Under the pieces are notes generated by a model. That model did not search any database, had not been told where the DNA came from, and saw only the letters and a program-made list of their open reading frames with translations. Shown here in pieces: positions 4,836 to 53,526 of a DNA stretch of 54,068 bases. The stretch's first letter is position 1; each line of letters opens with the position of its first letter. A program made the position numbers and the translations under genes. This stretch comes from a virus. Location of the stretch: positions 1-54,068 of IMG/VR virus record IMGVR_UViG_3300017917_002303; one strand, 5' to 3'.

Positions 4836-5109
4836 AGACTTCTCCCAGGATTTTATCAATCTGCTTGATGACATGCTGACAGATAGCACGTCCATGGCAG
4901 AAACCGACTTTGTAGATGATCTGCTAGATCTTATCAGCGAAAGACTTGTAAGTTTGCACGATTATTATAATAGCAGTCTTGCCAGCGTACAGTATTATCA
5001 GAGGCAGATCATGGAACGCAAAGTGAAGTCCCCAGTGCAGCAGGATAATTATCAAGATGTCGTGAAGTTTCTGAATAGCAATACCGAAGTCGCACCTGAT
5101 GACTGTTAG
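4804..5109 (+). CDS. Helical phage protein of unknown function, about 101 aa
   Basis: The protein is acidic and helical (QDFINLLDDMLTD, DFVDDLLDLISERL) with an aromatic Tyr-rich middle (LHDYYNSSLASVQYYQRQ). ATG 4804 and ATG 4813 are both possible starts; neither has a clear ribosome-binding site, and translation probably couples to the overlapping 4698 frame. It is the last gene before the origin-like region and ends with the stop at 5107-5109. Function is unknown. Confidence 0.6.
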   Translation: MKPMNFSKHSKDFSQDFINLLDDMLTDSTSMAETDFVDDLLDLISERLVSLHDYYNSSLASVQYYQRQIMERKVKSPVQQDNYQDVVKFLNSNTEVAPDDC

Positions 5110-5160
5110 TATGCTCAAAAGCGCATAGAATAAAAAAGGTTAAAATAAATGTTGTTTGAT

Positions 5161-5439
5161 TGTGGAAAAGGTTGTGAAAAACTTTATAATTTACTGTTGT
5201 TCTGTTGATTACTTCTAAGTCCTTATAAATGCCCGCTGCCGTTGTCACCTTAGCGGTCGCACTATAAGACACACACAGTCTCACAAATCTCCCCCGTCCA
5301 CTATAAGAACCACAGCACACTTTTCCACAGCAAACTTATAAGTTTTCCACACGTTTTTCACAGTTTCTTATAAGTTTTCCACAAGCAGTTTGTGTTACTT
5401 TGAGTGACAGACTGCGATCTCAGTGATACCTGTGGAAAA
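5161..5439 (+). other. DnaA-box cluster, candidate replication origin
   Basis: Five exact TTTTCCACA words occur here: 5161-5169 (minus), 5321-5329, 5343-5351 and 5375-5383 (plus) and 5431-5439 (minus). Two one-mismatch copies, TTTTTCACA, are at 5173-5181 (minus) and 5354-5362 (plus). TTTTCCACA is the DnaA box form used by cyanobacteria. The stretch from 5110 to 5513 has no convincing gene, is flanked by gene-dense DNA, and contains many short TTATAAG-type words that could melt easily. I infer a replication origin or another DnaA-responsive site. A minus-strand frame at 5009-5320 is judged spurious. Confidence 0.6.
5335..5383 (+). repeat. 17-bp direct repeat carrying a DnaA-type box
   Basis: CTTATAAGTTTTCCACA occurs at 5335-5351 and again at 5367-5383, 32 bp apart (about three helical turns), so both copies lie on the same DNA face. 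Each couples the palindrome CTTATAAG to TTTTCCACA. Confidence 0.8.
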
Positions 5440-5513: not shown

Positions 5514-5675
5514 ATGAGCACTTCGTTGTTGATTTCTGCACTTCGTCTCGGCAACACTGGCAACGAGATCTTGAACATTCTGGATGCACTTGTGTCTGAT
5601 GAGAATGTTAGCACAGATCAGCAGGTTTGTCAAGTCGCTTATAATGCACCTACAGCAGATGTGATCGATTTCTGA
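5514..5675 (+). CDS. Small phage protein next to the origin-like region, 53 aa
   Basis: ATG 5514 opens 53 residues, MSTSLLISALRLGNTGNEIL and onward, closing with QVAYNAPTADVIDF. The pattern of a short helix, GNTGNEILxILDAL, and a C-terminal PTAD motif resembles small proteins that I associate with T4-like cyanophages, where Asn/Gly-rich 50-60 residue proteins of this type recur. Codon use is like the left-hand genes rather than the AT-rich island to the right. No clear ribosome-binding site is visible. Function is unknown. Confidence 0.6.
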   Translation: MSTSLLISALRLGNTGNEILNILDALVSDENVSTDQQVCQVAYNAPTADVIDF

Positions 5676-5735: not shown

Positions 5736-5835
5736 TACCGTCGGCGGGCGATGCCTAAAGCTAAAAACGCTAACTACCCTAACCTACAACGAACCAAAAA
5801 CGCGAACGAGATATAAGGTGTTTCAAAAAATTTTT

Positions 5836-5897
5836 CAGGTATAAAAAATTCGTACAGGTATTATAAGGGTCTCAAAAAATTTTTTGAATATATAAAT
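5836..5897 (+). promoter_or_regulatory. AT-rich promoter region for the accessory island
   Basis: The 245 bp between 5676 and 5920 hold no gene. Close to the first island gene are two CAGGTAT words 19 bp apart (5836, 5855), a perfect 16-bp palindrome TCAAAAAATTTTTTGA at 5872-5887, and TATAAAT at 5891-5897, close to the T4-type late motif. This is where I would expect the promoter of the 5921 gene. Confidence 0.45.
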
Positions 5898-5920
5898 CCT
5901 TATAAAGGTTTTTATCCATT

Positions 5921-6502
5921 ATGAAATTCTTTTTTTGTGGAGGTAGTAATATAGATCTACGCATAAAAATTCATAATTTAATTCCTGAACAAAAATATCC
6001 TCATATTGTATCACAACACTTTAATGCGACACACATTAATGAAGGAACTTCTTCTGGTAGTAATAAAAGATCAATTAGAAAAATTTTTTACGAATATGAT
6101 ATGAATGAATTTGATTTCATCTGTATAGAATTTACTCCATATCCAAGAACAGAATTTTATGATGATCAAGAAAAAAAATGGATAAAATTTGCTTACTCAT
6201 ATCACCCCAATAAAACAAGTGACAAGAATAAAAAGTTAATGACGACATATTATAGTGAAATATATAATGCAGATCACGGAAATTTGCAATATGAAATTGA
6301 ATTCACAACAATTAAAAAATATTTAACAGCAATAAAAAAACCATTTGCATTAATTAATACAGATTTGCAATACAGAGGGTTTCAAAAACATGATTTTAAT
6401 GTTGCAGAATACGATACAAATAATTTACATTTAACAGATATTGGACATAAAATGATCGCAAAAAATATAATCAAACATTATGAAAATTTTTTACAACGGT
6501 GA
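5921..6502 (+). CDS. SGNH/GDSL-like protein 1 of 5, 193 aa
   Basis: The family folds like SGNH hydrolases (esterases and acyl hydrolases). Block I is KFFFCGGSNI with the nucleophile-position Ser at residue 9. Near the C-terminus is HLTDIGHKMIAKNI, standing where the Asp/His pair of the family lies. This copy is the most diverged: the HPN of the other members is HLT, and the Asn block differs. It overlaps the next paralogue by 23 bp, so the two are co-translated. Family assignment rests on comparison within the cluster; enzymatic activity is uncertain. The gene is very AT-rich relative to the genes left of 5.7 kb. Confidence 0.6.
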   Translation: MKFFFCGGSNIDLRIKIHNLIPEQKYPHIVSQHFNATHINEGTSSGSNKRSIRKIFYEYDMNEFDFICIEFTPYPRTEFYDDQEKKWIKFAYSYHPNKTSDKNKKLMTTYYSEIYNADHGNLQYEIEFTTIKKYLTAIKKPFALINTDLQYRGFQKHDFNVAEYDTNNLHLTDIGHKMIAKNIIKHYENFLQR

Positions 6503-7098: not shown

Positions 7099-7866
7099 AT
7101 GCATTATAATTTACTATTCAATGGATGCAGTTTTACTTATGGAATTGAACTTCAAGGAATTGATAATAATTTAGATAAACAAACAAAGAATAGATTTTCT
7201 CATTTAGTTTCAGAGAAATTAAACTTAACGTATCAAAATATATCCAATCAAGGAGTAAGTAACGATTGGATTGTAGAAAGCACAATCAAATGGTTTGAAG
7301 AAGGTAATACTTGTGATATAGCAGTTATACAATTAACGGCAAAAGCAAGAACTGTTTGGTATAAGAACAATAAGGCATTTAATTTTGCTCCAGGGTTAAT
7401 AGTAGATAAAAAATATTTAAAATTTCCAATACTTGATTATTTCTTAGAACATGGTGCATTAGATCCTCTTAGATTATACTATAAAAAAGTATATTCTGAT
7501 TATATGGGGGATCAGAATTTTTATAAAAACTTATTTTTATTGGAAAATTTTTTTAAAAATAAAAAAATAAAAACAATATTTTTATCTTTGTGTAAAATTC
7601 CAAAACCAAACGATGGTTGGAAATCTTTATGCAAAACAAAAAAGATACAGCATATTATTAATACTGGAATGGAAGGACATCCTATAGATGAAGATCCACT
7701 TGATTATGGGTTAATTGGTAACAGATATACTAACCCAGAAAATTTCTGTCCAGAATTATATCAAAGCACAAAAAATTATGATTTAATTGGAACACGCCCG
7801 AATGAACTAGGACACCAAAAGATTGCGGACTATGTTATTGAGCAAATTAATATCCATAATCAATAG
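7099..7866 (+). CDS. SGNH/GDSL-like protein 3 of 5, 255 aa
   Basis: This is the longest of the five paralogues. Block I reads LLFNGCSFTYGIEL (Ser11, with GCS in place of GDS). The QGVSNDWIVESTIKWFEEG block follows at about residue 55, then a central region with the hydrophobic strand IAVIQLT. The terminal motif is RPNELGHQKIADYVI, where Arg replaces the first His of HPN but the final His is kept. The extra 50-60 residues compared with its relatives lie in the middle and late part. Its 3' end overlaps the end of the minus-strand sulfotransferase by 20 bp. Confidence 0.75.
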   Translation: MHYNLLFNGCSFTYGIELQGIDNNLDKQTKNRFSHLVSEKLNLTYQNISNQGVSNDWIVESTIKWFEEGNTCDIAVIQLTAKARTVWYKNNKAFNFAPGLIVDKKYLKFPILDYFLEHGALDPLRLYYKKVYSDYMGDQNFYKNLFLLENFFKNKKIKTIFLSLCKIPKPNDGWKSLCKTKKIQHIINTGMEGHPIDEDPLDYGLIGNRYTNPENFCPELYQSTKNYDLIGTRPNELGHQKIADYVIEQINIHNQ

Positions 7867-8905
7867 GTGTTCCCCAATCTGCTGGCAGGCATCCATGAAA
7901 TTTTTCAAAATCATCATAAATTGGACTGAAAAATTTCCTCATATAATTATAAAGATCTTCTGTTAAGATCTCCCAGTCAGATGTGTGCTGATCTTCTAGG
8001 AAGTCTAACTTTGGTGCGTTAATTCCTTTATCTGGGACAAATACGCATGGATGGATATGCTCAAGTTTATATGAAATAAACTGTTCTAATTTTGATATTT
8101 CATCTTTTTTCTTATTAAAAAAGTCTTCCATAATAAGATAGCAAACATTGTCACTTCCAAAAATAGAATTTAAATCGCCAATTACGTTTGCATAATTTGT
8201 ACTTATGCTACTTAAGTAATTTTTATTAAACATTATATTTTCAATCAAGTAATTTGTTACTGATTTATTTGATGCAAGTTCAATAAAATTTTCAGGTCTA
8301 TGATATCGCTCTGGAGAACCAACCTCAATTGTGTTACTAATAAGATGTTTTCTATAATATGAAGAGTTTTCAATAGAAAAACATCGTCTTACTGGATCTC
8401 TAAGCATTAGCAAAACTTTTACATCAAAATGTTCAGATAGAACTTGCTTTACATTTGTAAGAAATTTTTCTTCTATGACTAATTGATTACAATTTGAAAA
8501 GTCAGCAACAGCAGTGTAATCGTTTCCAATGTATTCTGACAATTTTAAATAGTATTCAACATAGTTTTCAATAGATGGAACTTTAAAAAGTTTTTCTACT
8601 TCATCTTTAGAAAACTTATATCCAATTTTAAAATAATCATAATGAAAATGATCTGGATTTAAGTTGAGTGTTCGAGACTTAATACTTTCATAATGTTCAA
8701 GAAAGAAATCAACATCTTTCAATGCCATCAAAGGAACATCAGTTTTATAAACAAAAGTAGGATCAAAAATCCTACGCAAATATCCGCATTCTTTATGAAT
8801 TCCTGTATGTAAATATTTTTGACTTCTAGTTAATGTATAATATAGCGATGTTGTACCACACCAAGACGCTCCAAAAAATAAAATAAATTGTCGTTTCATA
8901 CTCAT
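7847..8905 (-). CDS. PAPS-dependent sulfotransferase-like protein, about 352 aa
   Basis: Sulfotransferases of this kind move sulfate from PAPS to hydroxyls on sugars or other acceptors. The 5'-phosphosulfate loop is clear near the N-terminus: FFGASWCGTTSLYYTL, residues 10-25. The 3'-phosphate site appears as LMLRDPVRRCFS near residue 170. ATG 8905 is preferred over the TTG at 8920. It is the only minus-strand gene in the 5.9-15.6 kb island and lies divergent from the next SGNH-like gene with a gap of about 34 bp that must hold two promoters. The substrate is unknown; a host or phage polysaccharide is a reasonable guess. Confidence 0.85.
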   Translation of the reverse strand: MSMKRQFILFFGASWCGTTSLYYTLTRSQKYLHTGIHKECGYLRRIFDPTFVYKTDVPLMALKDVDFFLEHYESIKSRTLNLNPDHFHYDYFKIGYKFSKDEVEKLFKVPSIENYVEYYLKLSEYIGNDYTAVADFSNCNQLVIEEKFLTNVKQVLSEHFDVKVLLMLRDPVRRCFSIENSSYYRKHLISNTIEVGSPERYHRPENFIELASNKSVTNYLIENIMFNKNYLSSISTNYANVIGDLNSIFGSDNVCYLIMEDFFNKKKDEISKLEQFISYKLEHIHPCVFVPDKGINAPKLDFLEDQHTSDWEILTEDLYNYMRKFFSPIYDDFEKFHGCLPADWGTPIDYGY

Positions 8906-8939
8906 TAATAAATATTTCAAAATCTATTAGTATCTATAT

Positions 8940-13578: not shown

Positions 13579-14775
13579 ATGAATAATCCAGTTATTTGTA
13601 TACAGCCATTCAATAACATTTATAATGCTCCAGGAAAATCATATTCTCCTTGTTGTTGGGGTGGTTTATTTAATTATTCTCCAGATGAAGTTTTACCATT
13701 ATCGCATTTTACTAGCGATGAAATGAATAGAATTAGAAAAGAAATGCTTAATGGAGAAAAAACGGAGTTTTTAGAAAAATTTTGCAGCAAATGTTGGCAA
13801 AAAGAAAAGGAATATGGACATTCACCTAGATTAGATGAGGTTGTATCAAAATCATTTACAGATAATTTTAATGAAGATGGAGTTTTAGGGAAGTGTAATC
13901 AAAGATTTTTAAAAATTTCTCTTAATATTTTTGGAAATCAATGCAATTTACAGTGCTATGAGTGTTTACCTAATAACTCTTCATCAAGAATTTCTGTAAT
14001 GAAAAAATTGGACCCACAATGGTCAGATCCTAAAAATTTTCCACATTTTAATGATAAAGAATATGATTTAAAAAAAACAAGGCAAGAACAGTTCAACGAT
14101 GTTGTTAATAATCTTGTTGACAATGCCGATAAAATCAGAACTATTTCCGTAGTTGGTGGAGAGCCTATGTTAATGAAATCTCATTTCCATCTTCTTGATA
14201 GATTAATTGAATGTGGTCATTCTAAAGAAATTTCATTAAATTACTGCTCTAATATGACTGTAACAAAATTATCAAATATGAAAAAATATTTTGATAATTT
14301 TAAGTCTACATTTCTTCAATGGAGTGTTGATTCAATAGGAGAAAGAAATACTTGGTTAAGATATCCAACCAATTGGGAAGAAACCTTGTTAAATGTATTT
14401 GAAATAAAGACATATTTACGAAGCAATTTACTAGGAATTATAGAATCAACTATTACACCAACAATTCTCAGTATTACATCATTCAAAGATACATACAACT
14501 GGCTATTAGAAAATGAATTAATTTCTATTAAAAATAAGCATGTTAATGTGGTATCTAGACCAGAATTTTTGCGTCCACATCATTTACCACAAAAGCTTAA
14601 AGAAGAAATTTCAGAGGATATATTAAAAATTTCAAAATACAGATATAACCAACTCATGGAAACTGGCGATGAGCAAATGTTTAAAAAAGCAATAGAATAT
14701 TGTGATGCATTAGATAAGCAAAGAGGAACAAATTGGAGAACTACATTTCCAGAAATTGCAAAGTATGCGGATTGA
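13579..14775 (+). CDS. Radical SAM protein with extra cysteine motifs, copy 2
   Basis: A 398-residue paralogue of the 10647 product with the same order of motifs: SPCCW near residue 28, a CSKCW pair near residue 70, the radical SAM triad in NQCNLQCYEC (C122, C126, C129), VVGGEPMLM, a central IQWS-like strand (here LQWSVDSIGERNTWLRYPT in part) and the shared C-terminal DKQRGTNW-TTFPEIAKYA. Divergence is spread across the whole protein, so the duplication is not recent, apart from the 3' end where DNA is almost identical. Having two suggests either two substrates or a functional heterodimer. Confidence 0.87.
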   Translation: MNNPVICIQPFNNIYNAPGKSYSPCCWGGLFNYSPDEVLPLSHFTSDEMNRIRKEMLNGEKTEFLEKFCSKCWQKEKEYGHSPRLDEVVSKSFTDNFNEDGVLGKCNQRFLKISLNIFGNQCNLQCYECLPNNSSSRISVMKKLDPQWSDPKNFPHFNDKEYDLKKTRQEQFNDVVNNLVDNADKIRTISVVGGEPMLMKSHFHLLDRLIECGHSKEISLNYCSNMTVTKLSNMKKYFDNFKSTFLQWSVDSIGERNTWLRYPTNWEETLLNVFEIKTYLRSNLLGIIESTITPTILSITSFKDTYNWLLENELISIKNKHVNVVSRPEFLRPHHLPQKLKEEISEDILKISKYRYNQLMETGDEQMFKKAIEYCDALDKQRGTNWRTTFPEIAKYAD

Positions 14776-17017: not shown

Positions 17018-17422
17018 GTGCCTCTTCAAAAAATTTCTAGGGGTTTCAAAGATATTTCTTTATCAATGAAACGTCATCCAGTTACAAACGATATTCTTCC
17101 TTTAAAAAATGAGGATGCTATTAAGCGTTCGGTTCAAAATTTAGTAAGAATTAAGATTGGAGAGGTATTTTTTAACAATTTAATTGGGACTAGAATTAGT
17201 GGGGCACTTTTTGAACTAGCGACAACTGATTTTACTGATCCAATAAAAACTGAAATTGAGACTGTAATAACAAATTATGAACCAAGAGTTATACTAAAAA
17301 CCGTTGAAGTTGATCCAGATCCTGATAATAATGCCTTAGACATCACGATATCTTATGACATAGTTGGTTTATCAACGCCCACACAAACAATTACATTCAT
17401 CTTAGAACCAACTAGACTATAA
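17018..17422 (+). CDS. 25: Baseplate wedge protein gp25
   Basis: gp25 joins gp6 and gp53 at the inner baseplate, where it forms the wedge core and nucleates the tail sheath. The 134-residue length matches T4 gp25 (132). The family pattern is visible: an N-terminal FKDISLSMKRHPVTNDI, then AIKRSVQNLVRIKIGE, FNNLIGTRI, and strands from EPRVILKTVEVDPDPDNNAL to TQTITFIL. The start is GTG 17018. It overlaps gp6 by one base (TAATG), as usual for this pair. Confidence 0.92.
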   Translation: MPLQKISRGFKDISLSMKRHPVTNDILPLKNEDAIKRSVQNLVRIKIGEVFFNNLIGTRISGALFELATTDFTDPIKTEIETVITNYEPRVILKTVEVDPDPDNNALDITISYDIVGLSTPTQTITFILEPTRL

Positions 17423-19302
17423 TGGCACTAACACAATTTACAAATCTAAACTTTGAGGATATAAAAACCTCAATTAAAGATTATTTGAGAGCAAATACTA
17501 ATTTTACAGATTATGATTTTGAGGGATCTAATCTATCAGTCATTATAAATCTACTTGCATATAATTCTTATATTACCGCCTATAACACAAATATGGTGGT
17601 GAATGAAACATTTATAGATTCTGCGACATTGCGTGAAAATGTTGTTTCTCTTGTTCGTAATATTGGATATGTTCCTAGGTCAAAGCGTGCAGCAAAAGCA
17701 ACTGTAGATTTTTTTATTAGTGGAATTTCTACTTCAACAGATACAATTTCATTTCAACCAGGAATTGTTGCAAATGGAAGTGTTTCTGATGTAAATTTTA
17801 TCTTCTCTATACCAGAAAAGGTTACCGTAGCAGCAGAAAATGGTAATTCTTTTGGTAGTTTAGAGATTTATCAAGGGCAATATCTAGAAAATTCTTGGAT
17901 TGTTAATAATTCTCAACCAAATCAACGTTATATAATCCCGAATAATAGTGTTGATACATCGACTTTGCGTGTGCGGATAAAAAACACGTCTACAGATACT
18001 ACCTCCACAGAATATCAATTAGTTGATAATATTCTTGGTATCACCTCAACATCAAATATTTACTTGATTCAAGAAACAACAGACGAAAAATATGAAATTT
18101 TGTTCGGGGATGGAATTTTTGGTAAAAAGTTACAATCTGGAAATGTAATTACTGCGTCTTATATCAAAACAAACGGTAAAGATGGCAACGGGGTCTCTGA
18201 TTTTAGATTTACTGGTACTATTTTTGATGAAAATAATGCCAATATAACCTCTTTTATTGTAGATTTAGCCACACAAATCCCATCTGAAAACGGAGATGGT
18301 ATAGAACCAGTTGAAAGTGTCAAATATTATGCACCTAGACTATATTCATCTCAACATAGAGCAGTAACTGCAAGTGATTATGAGGCGATTTTACCCACTT
18401 TATATCCAAACATAGAAAGTGTTAGTGCATATGGTGGAGAAGATTTAACTCCACCACAATATGGAAGAGTTTTTATTTCTGCTAAACCGAGAAATGGATC
18501 ATTTTTGTCAGATTTTACTAAAAAACAACTTTTACAATCTTTAAAGAATTATTCGGTTGCTGGGATCGTTCCTCAATTTCAAGATTTAAAATATCTTTAC
18601 GTGGAAATAGATAGTTACATTTATTATAATACAAATTTGATTAGTGATTCGAATAATTTAAAGACGGACATAGTTTCTGCTATGACATCTTATGCAAAAA
18701 GTGCGGAAATGAACCAATTTGGTGGAAGATTTAAATATAGTAAAATTTGTTCATTAATTGATAATGTAAATACTGCAATTACTTCAAATATTACAACTGT
18801 AAGAATTAGAAGAGACTTAGTTGCAAAAATAAACAATCCAGCACAGTACGAATTGTGTTTTGACAATCAATTTTACTCTGGAAGAAATGATTATAATATT
18901 AAAAGTACAGGATTTGATGTTCTCAATGTAGATGGAACTTGTTATTTTTCAGATAAGGTTGTTAATGGATCTAATATTGGTAATTTGTTTCTTTTCCAGA
19001 TAATTTCTGATGACGAAATTAATATTCTTTCAACTAAATTTGGAACAGTAAATTATATCACTGGCGAAATCCTTATAGATACTGTAAATATCACTTCAAC
19101 AAGTTTACCAGATAATATTATTGAAGTTCAGGCAATTCCACTATCAAATGATGTTTTAGCGAGAAAGGAATTATATTTGCAACTAGATATTTCTAAGAGT
19201 AATTTCTATATGAAACAGGATAGTATCTCTTCAGGTGCAAATACTTCTGGAACAAGATTTGATATACAGTCAAGCTATCAAAACGGTAAGAAAACAAGAT
19301 AA
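17422..19302 (+). CDS. 6: Baseplate wedge protein gp6 (J-like)
   Basis: gp6 forms the inner ring of the baseplate together with gp25 and gp53. The 626-residue product is near T4 gp6 in length (660) and begins with the family pattern FEDIKTSIKDYLRANTNFTDY then SNLSVIINLLAYNSYITAYN. Middle segments EKYEILFGDGIFGKKLQSGN and YYAPRLYSSQHRAVTASDYE are the hallmark of gp6/gpJ baseplate proteins, the latter preceding the VESVSAYGGED-like loop. It lies between gp25 and a giant structural gene. Confidence 0.93.
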   Translation: MALTQFTNLNFEDIKTSIKDYLRANTNFTDYDFEGSNLSVIINLLAYNSYITAYNTNMVVNETFIDSATLRENVVSLVRNIGYVPRSKRAAKATVDFFISGISTSTDTISFQPGIVANGSVSDVNFIFSIPEKVTVAAENGNSFGSLEIYQGQYLENSWIVNNSQPNQRYIIPNNSVDTSTLRVRIKNTSTDTTSTEYQLVDNILGITSTSNIYLIQETTDEKYEILFGDGIFGKKLQSGNVITASYIKTNGKDGNGVSDFRFTGTIFDENNANITSFIVDLATQIPSENGDGIEPVESVKYYAPRLYSSQHRAVTASDYEAILPTLYPNIESVSAYGGEDLTPPQYGRVFISAKPRNGSFLSDFTKKQLLQSLKNYSVAGIVPQFQDLKYLYVEIDSYIYYNTNLISDSNNLKTDIVSAMTSYAKSAEMNQFGGRFKYSKICSLIDNVNTAITSNITTVRIRRDLVAKINNPAQYELCFDNQFYSGRNDYNIKSTGFDVLNVDGTCYFSDKVVNGSNIGNLFLFQIISDDEINILSTKFGTVNYITGEILIDTVNITSTSLPDNIIEVQAIPLSNDVLARKELYLQLDISKSNFYMKQDSISSGANTSGTRFDIQSSYQNGKKTR

Positions 19303-40145: not shown

Positions 40146-43100
40146 ATGGCTGCTCCAGTAATTCAGTTTAAAAGAGGTCTTTTCAGCAATTTACCTGGCT
40201 TAAGAGCGGGTGAACCTGGATTTACCACTGATAAATATGACCTATACGTAGGTGTAAATAGTACATCAGAAGGCAATAAATTCTTTGGTTCTCATAGATA
40301 TTGGACTAAAGAAACATCAACAGCAGGATCTGGTGTAAATCTTGTCGAAGGATCTAATAATGGCGATAACGCAATCACCTTAAAAGCTCCTGCTGCATTA
40401 GCATCTAGTTATACAATTACTTTCCCAGAAGCAATTGTAGCTAACGGATATTTAAAAGTTGCTAGTGACGGAACTCTACGTTGGGACAATGAAGTTTCAG
40501 CGGAAAATGTTAATGTTATTGGTATTGCTTCAATTTCACAACTTTTAGCAACTACAGCAAAAGTAGGTGCTGGTTTAACAGTTACTGGAGCAACAGATCT
40601 AAATGGAGGTCTAGATGTTTCTGGTGGTGCATCTATTGATCAACTATCAGTTTCTGGTGTTACAACTTCAACTGGTGGATTTGTTGGCGATTTAACAGGT
40701 AATGCTGATACAGCAACAGCACTTGACACTGCTCGTGATTTTCAAGTTACTGGTGACGCTACTTCCGCAATTGTTTCATTTGATGGAACTTCAAACGTTG
40801 GTCTTGCAGTAACTTTAGCAACAGTTAATGGTAATATTGGAACATTTGGATCACAAACACAAGTTCCTATTATTACAGTTAATGCTAAAGGTCTTATTAC
40901 TTCAGTATCGACAGCTGCAGTTGGAACTGCCCTAACGGTAACTGGTGACAGTGGATCTGAAACAATTAACCTTTTAACAGAAGCACTAGCAATCACTGGT
41001 GGTACAAATATCACTAGTACTGCTGCTTCAAATGGTATTGATATTGATCTAGATGATAATATTTCACTAATTAATGTTAAAGCTACAGGAATTGTTACAT
41101 CTGGATCTTTTGTTGGTGACGGTGCTAGTGTTACTAACTTAACATATAGCAATATTACTGGAGTTCAAACTTCAGTTCGTAATGAGTTTTCTGCAACTTC
41201 AACCGATTTTGGCAGACTAACCTACAACTCAGCATCTGGTCAATTCAGTGTTGCTGGTGTTACTACCTCTGAGATTAGATCTCAATTTGCAGCTGCAGGA
41301 ACCGATTTCGCTTCCCTTTCATATAATAGTGCATCGGGAACTTTTACTGTAACTGGTGTTACCACATCGCAAATTAGAAATCAGTTCAACGCTGCAGGAA
41401 CCGATTTTGCTTCTCTTGCTTATGATAATTCAACAGGAACCTTTACGGTAACTGGTATTACTACAGCGCAGATTAGAGATAGATTTTCTGCAACTTCAAC
41501 CGATTTTGGCAGACTAACCTACAATTCAACATCAGGTCAGTTTAGTATTTCTGGTATTACAACAAGTGAAATTAGACAGCAATTCTCTGCTGCAGGAACC
41601 GATTTTGCTTCTCTTGCTTATGATAATTCAACAGGAACCTTTACGGTAACTGGTATTACTACAGCGCAGATTAGAAATCAATTCAGTGCTGGAACTGGCG
41701 TAAGTATTACTAATGGTCAAGTAAGCATTGGACAACCAGTTGCAACGACTGATAATGTTACATTTAGCAATGTAAAAGCAACTGGTATTGTAACTGCAAC
41801 TTCATTTGCAACTGGTGCTTCTGGTCAAGCAATCGGCATTAATACTAATACAATTTCAGGTCCAGATACAATTACAATTGATCCTTCTGGTTTAGGTGAT
41901 AACACAGGTACTGTTGTTATTAAAGGTGACTTACAAGTTGATGGTACAACAACGACAATCAACTCAACAACAGTAACAGTTGATGATTTAAATATTACTC
42001 TTGCTGATGGTGCAGTAAATGATGCTGCTGCTAATGGTGGTGGATTTACCGTTCAATCTGGTGACGGAAATAAGACATTCCAGTTTGAGGCAACTGGTGA
42101 CAACTTCGGATCATCCGAGAATTTAAATCTTGCCTCTAGTAAAGTTTATAAAATTAATAATGTTGAGGTTCTTTCTTCTTCAGCATTATCAACAAGCATT
42201 ACTGTTAGCGCAACTTCATTAGATATTGACGGTGCTACTGCAGCAACAACATTAACATCGGATGATTTATTCATTATCGATGATGGTGCTAATGGCACTA
42301 ATAAGAAGTTAACAGCTCAGCAACTATCAAATTATGTTCTAGGTGGTTCTGGCGGTGCTAGCTTCCCAGCAATTACTGTAAGTGGTTTAGGAACTATTAG
42401 CCAACTTCAAGCAACTACAGCTACTGTAGGTGCTGGTCTAACCGTATCTGGTGACGCTGATCTAAATGGTAACCTAGATGTTGCTGGTGGCATTACAGGT
42501 AATCTAAATGCAACTGGTGTATCAACTGCAGCATTCCTACAGTCAACTACTGTAAATGCTTCTGGTATTGTTACTGCATCATCATTTGTTGGTAACGATA
42601 TTCGTAAATCTGACGGTGCTTTAATTCCTCTTGTTGGTGTTGCATCTGTTTCTGCATTCACTGGTCTAGTCACTGCATTTAAGTTCGTAGGTAGTGGTTT
42701 AGAAGACTTCAGCGTTGTTAACGGTGTAGCAGAAGTTTCATACTCTGGTGTTGCTGCTTCAACTTATACAACATCGAATACATTTACTGCAACACAAGGT
42801 CAGACATCATTCAACTTTATTCCTGGATATGTTGGAGGTTTTGTAGATGTTTATCTAAATGGTATTCGTCTCATTACTGGTACTGATTATACTGCAACTG
42901 ATGGAGCAAATGTTGTTCTTTCCTCTGGAGCATCTGCTGGTGATGAACTAGAAATTGTTTCGTTCAAAGAACTAGGTGATCTCATTTATGTTCAAGATCT
43001 TAAAGTTGTTGATAACCTAACTGCAGGTATCGTAACAGCAACTTCAGGATTTGTAGGAAATCTAACTGGTAATGTAACTGGTAATGTAACTGGAAACTTA

Positions 43101-44489
43101 ACTGGCACTGCAACAACTGCAACTAAACTTGAAACTGCTCGTAACTTCCAAATTACTGGTGACGCTACTTCTGCTGCAGTATCCTTTAATGGTACTGGAA
43201 ATGTTGGTCTTGCAGTAACTTTAGCAACAGTTAATGGTAATATTGGAACATTTGGATCACAAACACAAGTTCCTATTATTACAGTTAATGATAAAGGTCT
43301 TGTTACTGCTGTAACAACTGCTTCTGTTGGTACTGCTTTAACTGTAACTGGTGATAGTGGATCAGAGAATATCAATCTTCTAACTGAAGCATTAGCAATC
43401 ACTGGTGGTACCAATATTACCACCAACGCTGCTTCCAATGGTGTTGATATTGATCTAGATGATAATATTTCACTTGTAAGTGTTGTTGCATCTGGTATCA
43501 TAACTGCAACAAATGGATTTGCTGGTAATCTCACTGGTAATGTAACTGGTAATGTAACTGGTAATCTAAACTCTTCTGGAGTTTCTACAGTATCATTCTT
43601 ACAAGCAACTACAGTAAATGTATCTGCTGCTGCTACTGTAGGTGGTGTATTAGATGCTAATGGTGGTTTAGATGTCTCTGGTAGTGCAATTATTGATCAA
43701 CTAACAGTTTCTGGTGTTACAACTTCAACTAATGGTTTTTCTGGAAATCTCACTGGAAATGTAACTGGAAATGTAACTGGAAATGTAACTGGTAATCTAA
43801 ATTCATCTGGTGTATCAACAGTTACCTTCTTGAAGGCGACTACAGCAACTTTAGGCGCTGGTCTAACAGTCACTGGAGCAACTGATCTTAATGGTGGTCT
43901 AGACGTTTCTGGTGGAGAGACAGTTCTTTCTTCCGCAACAGTTTCTGATCTAACTCAAGGTCGTGTTGTTCTTGCTGGCGCTGCTGGTGCTCTTGAGGAT
44001 AGTGGAAATCTAACATTTGGTGCTAACGGTCTAACTGTTACGGGTGGTGCTCTAGTTTCTGCTGCTTCTACATTCAGTGGTAATCTTTCGGTTGGTGGAA
44101 ATGTAGTTGTTTCTGGTGACCTAACGGTTAATGGAACAACAACTCAGATCAATACTGTTGAGATGACTGTTGAAGATACATTGATCGAACTTCAAATGAT
44201 CAATGGATCCGCACCAGGATCAGATACCAACAAAGATGTTGGTGTTGTAATGAACTACTTTGATGGATCTGCTAAGAAAGCAGCATTCTATTGGGATGAT
44301 TCCGCTGGAAGAATGGTTGCTGCAAGTGCAGTTTCTGAAAATAGTGGAGTTCTAACAGCATCAACATTTGCTGGTTTGGAAATCGGTTCTCTATATGTAA
44401 ACGATTGCGCTGGCGCTTCACAGGTTATTTCCTGCAGCGGCACCACACGTTCACTAGAGAACATCACAATTGACGGTGGTCAATTCTGA
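40146..44489 (+). CDS. Long repetitive tail-fibre-like protein, 1447 aa
   Basis: The N-terminus MAAPVIQFKRGLFSNLPGLR, then AGEPGFTTDKYDLYVGVN, is the attachment-type start shared by many cyanophage fibres. The shaft is repetitive: five tandem 33-residue units plus a partial one from residue 345 (TDFASLAYDNSTGTFTVTGI type), runs of GNVTGNVTGNL, and a large internal duplication (TLATVNGNIGTFGSQTQVPI onward) at about residues 217-310 and 1019-1112. The C-terminal third carries VNGTTTQINTVEMTVEDTLI, typical of beta-helical fibres. No chaperone or enzyme domain is seen, so this is probably a receptor-binding or whisker-like fibre. It has higher GC than the island genes. Confidence 0.85.
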   Translation: MAAPVIQFKRGLFSNLPGLRAGEPGFTTDKYDLYVGVNSTSEGNKFFGSHRYWTKETSTAGSGVNLVEGSNNGDNAITLKAPAALASSYTITFPEAIVANGYLKVASDGTLRWDNEVSAENVNVIGIASISQLLATTAKVGAGLTVTGATDLNGGLDVSGGASIDQLSVSGVTTSTGGFVGDLTGNADTATALDTARDFQVTGDATSAIVSFDGTSNVGLAVTLATVNGNIGTFGSQTQVPIITVNAKGLITSVSTAAVGTALTVTGDSGSETINLLTEALAITGGTNITSTAASNGIDIDLDDNISLINVKATGIVTSGSFVGDGASVTNLTYSNITGVQTSVRNEFSATSTDFGRLTYNSASGQFSVAGVTTSEIRSQFAAAGTDFASLSYNSASGTFTVTGVTTSQIRNQFNAAGTDFASLAYDNSTGTFTVTGITTAQIRDRFSATSTDFGRLTYNSTSGQFSISGITTSEIRQQFSAAGTDFASLAYDNSTGTFTVTGITTAQIRNQFSAGTGVSITNGQVSIGQPVATTDNVTFSNVKATGIVTATSFATGASGQAIGINTNTISGPDTITIDPSGLGDNTGTVVIKGDLQVDGTTTTINSTTVTVDDLNITLADGAVNDAAANGGGFTVQSGDGNKTFQFEATGDNFGSSENLNLASSKVYKINNVEVLSSSALSTSITVSATSLDIDGATAATTLTSDDLFIIDDGANGTNKKLTAQQLSNYVLGGSGGASFPAITVSGLGTISQLQATTATVGAGLTVSGDADLNGNLDVAGGITGNLNATGVSTAAFLQSTTVNASGIVTASSFVGNDIRKSDGALIPLVGVASVSAFTGLVTAFKFVGSGLEDFSVVNGVAEVSYSGVAASTYTTSNTFTATQGQTSFNFIPGYVGGFVDVYLNGIRLITGTDYTATDGANVVLSSGASAGDELEIVSFKELGDLIYVQDLKVVDNLTAGIVTATSGFVGNLTGNVTGNVTGNLTGTATTATKLETARNFQITGDATSAAVSFNGTGNVGLAVTLATVNGNIGTFGSQTQVPIITVNDKGLVTAVTTASVGTALTVTGDSGSENINLLTEALAITGGTNITTNAASNGVDIDLDDNISLVSVVASGIITATNGFAGNLTGNVTGNVTGNLNSSGVSTVSFLQATTVNVSAAATVGGVLDANGGLDVSGSAIIDQLTVSGVTTSTNGFSGNLTGNVTGNVTGNVTGNLNSSGVSTVTFLKATTATLGAGLTVTGATDLNGGLDVSGGETVLSSATVSDLTQGRVVLAGAAGALEDSGNLTFGANGLTVTGGALVSAASTFSGNLSVGGNVVVSGDLTVNGTTTQINTVEMTVEDTLIELQMINGSAPGSDTNKDVGVVMNYFDGSAKKAAFYWDDSAGRMVAASAVSENSGVLTASTFAGLEIGSLYVNDCAGASQVISCSGTTRSLENITIDGGQF
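40797..40884 (+). repeat. 88-bp exact repeat in the fibre gene, copy 1
   Basis: The 88 bases from GTTGGTCTTGCAG to ACAGTTAATG are identical to 43203-43290, within a longer duplicated protein segment. Identity at synonymous positions implies recent copying or gene conversion. Confidence 0.85.
41178..41672 (+). repeat. Five tandem 99-bp units in the fibre shaft
   Basis: Units begin at 41178, 41277, 41376, 41475 and 41574, with a sixth partial unit at 41673. Each encodes 33 residues of the type (R-x-x-F-x-A-x-x-T-D-F-x-x-L-x-Y). Eighty-seven bases at 41391-41477 and 41589-41675 are identical, exactly two periods apart; the first and fourth units also share a distinct ATSTDFGRLTYNS version. Confidence 0.88.
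43203..43290 (+). repeat. 88-bp exact repeat in the fibre gene, copy 2
   Basis: This is identical to 40797-40884, 2406 bp downstream and in the same reading frame, so the intervening segment could be lost or expanded by recombination without breaking the frame. Confidence 0.85.
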
Positions 44490-52041: not shown

Positions 52042-53526
52042 GTGAAGGATCACGAAGTTTCAATGGCAAATAGTCAACTTGATAAGACTATTGCTAACGC
52101 TAAAAAACTAAAAGCAAGACTTGGCAAGAAGGAGAAAAATATTCCTGCTTGGGTTCAGGCTAAGATTACTGATACTGATCATAATATGGATGCTGCTGCA
52201 TCATATTCAGTTAAAGAAGATTTGAGGAAGTGGTTTGGTAAAGGTGGTGAAGGTGGAGTTGGTGGTGGTGGTTGGGATAGATATAATACAAAGGGTGAAA
52301 GAATTGGTAAATGTGCTCGTGAACCTGGTGAACCAAAACCAAAATGTTTATCTAAAGAAAAAGCAGCGAAGATGTCTAAAGATGAAATTGCTTCTGCAGT
52401 GAGAAGAAAACGTAAAGAAGATCCAGTAGCTGATCGTTCAGGAAAAGGAGGAAAACCAGTTATGTCATCGAACAAAATTGATGAGCAATCAGCACAAGAC
52501 TATCAAAAATTTGATCGTAGAGTGACATCAGCAATGGCAGCGAAATCGCCAGATTTAAAAGTTAAACTTTTAAAACTTGCTGGACAAGCACATCCATCTT
52601 CCCAAGTAAAAACTGCAGAGCAGTTTATGGAAGCCTGTTGGAAGGGATATAAGCAAGTTGGAATGAAGAAGAAAGGAAAAAGAATGGTTCCAAATTGTGT
52701 TCCAGAAGAAACAGAAATTGATGAAATGATTGCTTTAGCAGCTCCAATTGTAAGAGGAATTGCAGCAATATCAAGAATTGGACAAGGTGTTTCAAAAGCA
52801 GGACAGGCATTAAAAACTGGAACACAAAAAGTAGGATCAAAAATTAAAGATGTTGCTAAAACAGCATCAGAAATTTCAGGAGAAATTAAAAAACAACCTT
52901 TAGATGCAAAAAAAGTAAAAGGACCAGAATGGAAGAAGGGATTAAAAAAAGCAGGTGAAACTGCAAAATCAGCGATAAGAACTACCACTGGCGGTTTTGC
53001 TTCAATGTATGAACCAAGAGAAGAATATATTATGGAAAAAAATGTTCCAACAAATCCTTCGTTATGGTCTAAAGCGAAAGCACAAGCAAGAGCAAAATTT
53101 GATGTCTATCCATCCGCCTATGCTAATGGATGGGCTGCCAAATGGTATAAATCCAAAGGTGGCGGATGGAAGAAATCCGCAAAGGAGAGTTATGACGGAA
53201 CAAGAGAACTACTTTCTTTTAGTAATTTTAGGAAGATCTCTAACGATAGCTTCAGTAATGCGGAGGAAACAGTAAATGAAGTTGCAGCATGGCAACGTAA
53301 AGAAGGAAAAAATAAAGAGGGTGGATTAAATGAAAAGGGGAGGAAATCATATGAAGAAGAAAATCCAGGTTCAGATCTAAAAGCACCTTCAAAAAAAGTT
53401 GGTAATCCAAGAAGAAAATCATTTTGTGCCCGTATGACTGGCATGAAGAAAAAATTAACTTCATCTAAAACTGCCAATGATCCAAATTCACGTATCAATA
53501 AATCATTAAGAGCCTGGAACTGCTGA
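52042..53526 (+). CDS. Basic multi-domain phage protein, DUF5872/DUF6321-like, 494 aa
   Basis: Four parts in order: residues 1-55 with DHEVSMANSQLDKTIANAKK and PAWVQAKITDTDHNMDAA; residues 60-140 a DUF5872-like region (LRKWFGKGGEGGVGGGGWDR, GKCAREPGEPKPKCLSKEKA, RRKRKEDPVADRSGKGGKP); a middle Lys/Ala-rich helical part (AKSPDLKVKLLKLAGQAHPS, then KYGWKKSAK-type WAAKWYKSKGGGWKK near 375); and a C-terminal DUF6321-like region near 410-494 (AWQRKEGKNKEGGLNEKGRK, NPRRKSFCARMTGMKKKLTS). The start is GTG 52042 or ATG 52063. Very basic, probably DNA-binding, possibly packaged in the head. Domain names are from memory of the pattern. Confidence 0.72.
   Translation: MKDHEVSMANSQLDKTIANAKKLKARLGKKEKNIPAWVQAKITDTDHNMDAAASYSVKEDLRKWFGKGGEGGVGGGGWDRYNTKGERIGKCAREPGEPKPKCLSKEKAAKMSKDEIASAVRRKRKEDPVADRSGKGGKPVMSSNKIDEQSAQDYQKFDRRVTSAMAAKSPDLKVKLLKLAGQAHPSSQVKTAEQFMEACWKGYKQVGMKKKGKRMVPNCVPEETEIDEMIALAAPIVRGIAAISRIGQGVSKAGQALKTGTQKVGSKIKDVAKTASEISGEIKKQPLDAKKVKGPEWKKGLKKAGETAKSAIRTTTGGFASMYEPREEYIMEKNVPTNPSLWSKAKAQARAKFDVYPSAYANGWAAKWYKSKGGGWKKSAKESYDGTRELLSFSNFRKISNDSFSNAEETVNEVAAWQRKEGKNKEGGLNEKGRKSYEEENPGSDLKAPSKKVGNPRRKSFCARMTGMKKKLTSSKTANDPNSRINKSLRAWNC

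Follow-up and report, generated by a model that had tools for sequence, protein, structure and literature searches.

The T4-like phages are the standard example of replication that does without the host initiator, and the origins of T4 itself, oriA to oriG, rely on R-loops and on recombination-dependent replication. Clusters of DnaA boxes also occur away from oriC, as in datA of Escherichia coli and in Bacillus subtilis, where they bind DnaA. In cyanobacteria the DnaA box is the 9-mer TTTTCCACA (PMC4674748, PMC6323995). Among phages, Syn9 was once predicted to have a single theta origin (cited in PMC2984593), and an origin with predicted DnaA boxes was obtained with Ori-Finder for the Pseudomonas phage vB_PseuGesM_254 (PMC11512268). 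The passages of the open-access literature that we retrieved contain no earlier account of DnaA boxes in cyanophages. Here we describe such boxes in a stretch of 54,068 nucleotides (IMG/VR record IMGVR_UViG_3300017917_002303, hereafter the window), which is a fragment of a T4-like cyanophage (Kyanoviridae). Our preferred reading, to which we give a probability of about one half, is that selection has maintained a predicted host-DnaA binding array in the principal non-coding control region of many T4-like cyanophages, where the array most likely helps to start phage replication.

The box array and its gene setting

The exact word TTTTCCACA is found at 5161 (-), 5321 (+), 5343 (+), 5375 (+) and 5431 (-), and the one-mismatch form TTTTTCACA at 5173 (-) and 5354 (+). 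Together they make up an array of seven DnaA-box-like 9-mers on both strands (5161..5439), with start-to-start spacings of 12, 148, 22, 11, 21 and 56 bp; the five exact and two one-mismatch words that the initial annotation had reported on both strands within 280 bp were all recovered. With at least three boxes of the host-clade consensus TTTTCCACA taken as the mark of a cyanobacterial DnaA-box array, the window has five exact ones in 279 bp. The same-strand part of the array (5321..5383, +) is helically phased at 22-11-21 bp; this layout recurs with four exact boxes in the loci L012, L063 and L094, and related runs are present in L057, L205, L227, L264 and L316. The stretch had also been described as gene-free, which is correct for the coding (plus) strand, where open reading frames (ORFs) end at 5109 and resume at 5514 with none of at least 50 aa between them, but a mechanical minus-strand ORF (5009-5320) overlaps the array. 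Two CTTATAAG palindromes (5335-5342 and 5367-5374) are interleaved with the boxes, and the segment 5335..5383 (+) holds two copies of CTTATAAGTTTTCCACA. The same interleaved palindromes are common to L005, L012, L063 and L094, and CTTATAAG occurs 18 times in 117 kb upstream of the conserved core described below against 17 times in 967 kb elsewhere, in loci that were not dereplicated.

Outside the array, the window holds a single further exact TTTTCCACA, at 14037. One-mismatch words are at chance level across the whole window (33 observed, 31.3 expected), and the improbable part is therefore the clustering. The highest number of exact TTTTCCACA words per 280 bp in 100 order-2 Markov simulations was two, reached once, against the five observed, in agreement with the earlier claim of a cluster beyond chance. 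Three other 9-mers, and no more, reach at least five copies per 280 bp in the window; they overlap one another and belong to a repeat inside the ORF 40146-44489. This AATGTAACTGG-type repeat (43539-43792) has at least five copies in about 250 bp of that large ORF.

Some 350-620 bp downstream of the array, where the early genes give way to gp25-gp6, is a non-coding element conserved across the family. This previously unannotated element (5742..5849, +; homologues in L001-L004, L005-L124 and L437-L448), here called the core, contains the invariant 12-mer CCCTAACCTACA at 5777-5788, within a 19-mer that reaches 5795. An AT-rich stretch (5801..5950, +; 24-28% GC per 50-bp bin), a candidate melting region, follows directly after the core, about 360 bp from the last box. 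The position of the array is fixed by the gp25-like and gp6-like baseplate wedge genes (17018..19302, +), the gene order being early small genes, array, core, short genes, gp25 and gp6, and the same order is seen in S-SSM7, Bellamy, S-SM2, DSL-LC02 and others. The conserved element matches 177 phage records, nearly all of them from cyanophages, the few others matching weakly, with E-values up to 10 allowed. In an alignment of 16 loci the invariant CCCTAACCTACA falls within an A/C-rich block, after which come tracts of A and T, while the sequence before the element is G/T-rich, and CCCTAACCTACA is exact and single-copy in 15/15 Kyanoviridae isolate genomes. The core is located in or near the gap between the small early-gene cluster and the structural genes, and is intergenic in most records; a few have a short hypothetical gene annotated across it. 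A search of the window against Rfam gave no RNA-family match.

Several other features of these regions were recorded. Exact boxes are present just downstream of the core in P-SSM7 (L439, +51 and +72) and S-CAM22 (L444, +51), where they sit in an A/T-tract motif; in other phages this motif has AGGTA at its end. A 357-aa ORF without a PHROG match (7847-8920, minus strand) lies against the gene run of the window, and in DSL-LC02, too, a gene on the minus strand follows soon after the core (L437:4151-5152). The ORF at 52042-53526 belongs to phrog_727, a family of unassigned function, and the 52-53 kb bin has GC and AT skews of 0.27 each.

Recurrence upstream of the core

When the 19-base form of the core was used in a blind scan, at least 120 loci were obtained, which together with three isolates and the window make 124 oriented loci; L030, an apparent coding sequence matched by chance, is included in the counts from 88, 65, 70 and 136 loci. 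Among the matches listed, 88 of the 124 have 800 bases upstream of the core, with at least one exact box there in 28/88 and at least three in 13/88, and boxes are ten times as dense in these 800 bases as in the rest of the same loci. An unbiased 9-mer test of 65 dereplicated loci, again among the matches listed, returned TTTTCCACA as the top clustered word upstream, with at least three copies per 400 bp in 17/65 loci, whereas non-overlapping words reach two loci; TTTTCCACA clusters downstream of the core were found in none of the 65. When 70 dereplicated loci from the matches listed were counted, the 121 kb that lie within 2 kb upstream of the core held 107 copies of TTTTCCACA and the 368 kb downstream of it held 5, a 65-fold enrichment.

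The same 70 loci, among the matches listed, were used for 27 one-mismatch variants, and a clear excess was seen for TTATCCACA (7 vs 1) and TATTCCACA (5 vs 1), TTATCCACA having the highest upstream to downstream ratio of the variants present on both sides and TATTCCACA the next. The few enriched variants thus include TTATCCACA, the general bacterial DnaA box. The degeneracy of DnaA recognition, in which TTWTCCACA is favoured, is reflected in a 21-fold enrichment of TTATCCACA, yet TATTCCACA is enriched 15-fold and the window's own TTTTTCACA form only 1.9-fold. A core-independent scan for three close boxes found the core (at most 3 mismatches) in 12/120 loci among the matches listed; in all 12 it lies downstream of the array.

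In the 15 isolate genomes (2.85 Mb), 29/59 exact boxes fall between -2000 and +150 of the core, in 1.1% of the DNA (an 85-fold enrichment); each of the 12 close box pairs is likewise found next to the core. Boxes accompany the core in ten of these genomes. The other five (Sf-FS3, S-SSM7, S-SCSM2R, Bellamy and P-SSM4) have the core with no exact box within 2 kb upstream, and the boxes are therefore not essential in every lineage; a search of these five for substitute repeat arrays gave one weak 8-mer in S-SSM7 and nothing in the other four. Box presence is not simply tied to the host strain, as the WH8102 phages include S-ShM2 with boxes and Sf-FS3 without them. No clusters were found in T4, KVP40, RB49 and Aeh1, which together have 15 TTWTCCACA words, the nearest two at least 369 bases apart, and this four-phage control is in line with the initial view that such clustering is unusual for T4-like phages. 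The window is AT-rich and its one-mismatch words are not in excess, as a chance or compositional accident would have it; the simulations and the recurrence at the same place in many cyanophage loci lead us to reject this explanation, which we hold to be vanishingly improbable.

Spacing and the predicted reader of the boxes

At least two exact boxes are present between -2600 and +150 of the core in 44/136 loci among the matches listed, in 36 distinct arrangements. The phage box spacings form a helical rhythm: among the matches listed, same-strand neighbours are 21 or 22 bp apart in 11/25 cases and 11 or 12 bp apart in 4/25, and convergent neighbours are 23 or 24 bp apart in 14/31. In 16 distinct convergent phage pairs the boxes are kept while the DNA between them differs, as is expected if the boxes themselves are what is selected. 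The distance from array to core is variable (about 140 to 2480 bp among the matches listed). Close same-strand TTTTCCACA pairs are found in 94/116 cyanobacterial genomes, and in 30 cyanobacterial loci chosen by a two-box pattern with gaps of 0-30 the same-strand spacings are 21 (25/58), 22 (7/58) and 11 bp (4/58). By this comparison of sequences, the phage same-strand spacings resemble the cyanobacterial ones; the window's 22-11-21 run, counting TTTTTCACA at 5354, consists of the cyanobacterial spacings 11, 21 and 22 bp, of which 21 is the host mode.

A phage-encoded DnaA was rejected as the reader of the boxes, since the domain IV model PF08299 matched 0/16 phage records against 10/14 control genomes, the positive control. 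DnaA domain IV is present in 19/20 small cyanobacterial genomes. In the flanks of dnaN, one Prochlorococcus-like genome has TTTTCCACA boxes, and in others there are arrays of TTATCCACA spaced at 11 and 21 bp; several have no exact boxes beside dnaN, some of these loci reaching the contig end before the upstream side, and the parallel with host oriC is thus not universal. A separate observation in 7/22 small cyanobacterial genomes (L532-L538) is a convergent TTTTCCACA pair exactly 44 bp apart, which in L534 sits between EVE-domain and Hsp70-like genes. It was rejected as the host oriC because it lies beside the EVE-domain gene, and not dnaN, in 2/3 loci with neighbours tested, and it is possibly a DnaA regulatory site away from dnaN.

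The identification of the words as cyanobacterial-type DnaA boxes is therefore well supported, by the exact word, its degeneracy, the spacing, the recurrence in the family and the lack of a phage DnaA in the 16 records. A phage-encoded DNA-binding protein unrelated to DnaA might read the same word by coincidence, and phased repeats would fit any cooperative binder, several neighbouring small proteins being without a known family. Such a coincidence would have to extend to three features that agree with host DnaA sites, namely the word itself, its TTATCCACA variant and the spacing of 11, 21 and 22 bp, and we consider it improbable. The word, the spacing, the recurrence at one place and the failure to find a phage DnaA instead point to a selected array of predicted host-DnaA sites. 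An ordered cluster of host-DnaA words at one place in the genome suggests that these phages use, or tie up, the replication switch of the host.

Origin or sink, and comparison with known systems

A core that is unique, non-coding, family-wide and strand-asymmetric makes an origin for phage replication with host DnaA the leading reading, and a plausible one. Host DnaA would assemble on the phased boxes early in infection, and its presence on the array would, most likely, help phage DNA synthesis to begin at this place, through melting or marking of the DNA next to the conserved core; the phage's own T4-type replisome would then take over, and later rounds would proceed by recombination. Since cyanomyoviruses carry T4 replisome genes (PMC2984593), the part played by DnaA would be limited to opening or marking the site. 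The GC skew flips sharply across the core, from +0.22 to -0.41 (94 loci, among the matches listed), but this is local: in six genomes no genome-wide switch was found at the core, just a local minimum in the bin before it, and detrended skew maxima lie about 8-13 kb upstream in 5/6 of them. The proposal of the initial annotation that the cluster is a candidate phage origin is plausible, while the genome-wide skew signal that was to accompany it did not appear in the six genomes and a melting-region signal was not seen beside the arrays. Beside 54 distinct arrays there is no GC dip, and DnaA-trio-like runs show no clear excess (9 in 8.4 kb vs 65 in 94 kb). The lack of a skew switch and of an AT-dip or trio signal, the loose distance to the core and the box-less third of the isolates count against an origin.

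The main rival of the origin reading is a DnaA sink, in which the array would titrate host DnaA as phage copies rise and so halt new rounds of host chromosome replication, in the manner of datA or the B. subtilis clusters; the initial annotation had also raised such a sequestration of host DnaA. Arrays of 2-7 boxes, their loose position relative to the core and the lack of a melting-region signal beside the 54 arrays would all suit a sink. Simple titration would require less precision than is seen in the recurrent minimal two-box forms and the near-fixed convergent spacing of 23-24 bp, and it would not lead one to expect that close pairs are always beside the core and never elsewhere in 15 genomes; we regard a sink as possible but unlikely. 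That host DnaA acts here as a transcription factor, regulating early or junction transcripts, is improbable. The site does lie at the junction of early and structural genes, and a weak sigma-70-like match (5163-5190) overlaps the first box, but promoter-like sites are at chance level (5 found vs 3.5 expected) and the array is not at a constant distance from the core, nor therefore from any given downstream gene. As for the features of T4-type R-loop origins, which are a middle promoter and an unwinding element downstream of it, the promoter-like matches are these same chance-level ones, and an AT-rich stretch follows the core.

An extension of the origin reading is that in T4-like cyanophages host DnaA licenses the phage origin, acting as a switch that ties phage genome replication to light and to the cell-cycle state of the host. 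DnaA binding to oriC depends on photosynthesis in Synechococcus elongatus (PMC6478999), from which this light-licensing idea is derived, and some cyanophages replicate only in the light (PMC7238727), which licensing could explain if true. We hold it to be distinctly unlikely.

Compared with the described systems, the array shares the 9-mer TTTTCCACA with the oriC clusters of S. elongatus, Anabaena 7120 and Cyanothece 51142 (PMC4674748, PMC6323995), and its 11/21/22 bp spacing classes with the TTTTCCACA pairs of cyanobacterial genomes. Unlike cyanobacterial oriC, it belongs to the genome of a lytic phage, is not near dnaN or dnaA, and has no AT dip beside it. T4 belongs to the same phage superfamily as the cyanophages and has the same replisome genes (PMC2984593), whereas T4, KVP40, RB49 and Aeh1 have no clusters of TTWTCCACA. 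The datA locus and the B. subtilis clusters are likewise groups of boxes, but they are chromosomal regulators and not part of a phage. The origin of vB_PseuGesM_254 is a single-genome prediction for another host, and the passages of PMC11512268 at hand show no family-wide conservation. DnaA-box clusters as such are already known, and what appears to be new is a conserved, phased and host-matched one in a T4-like group. That very abundant marine phages carry an ordered array of predicted host-DnaA sites next to a non-coding element conserved throughout the family suggests that a branch of the T4-like phages has tied itself to the host cell cycle again. The array also provides a defined location for a candidate cyanophage replication origin, and a connection of phage replication with DnaA and photosynthesis that is open to experiment.
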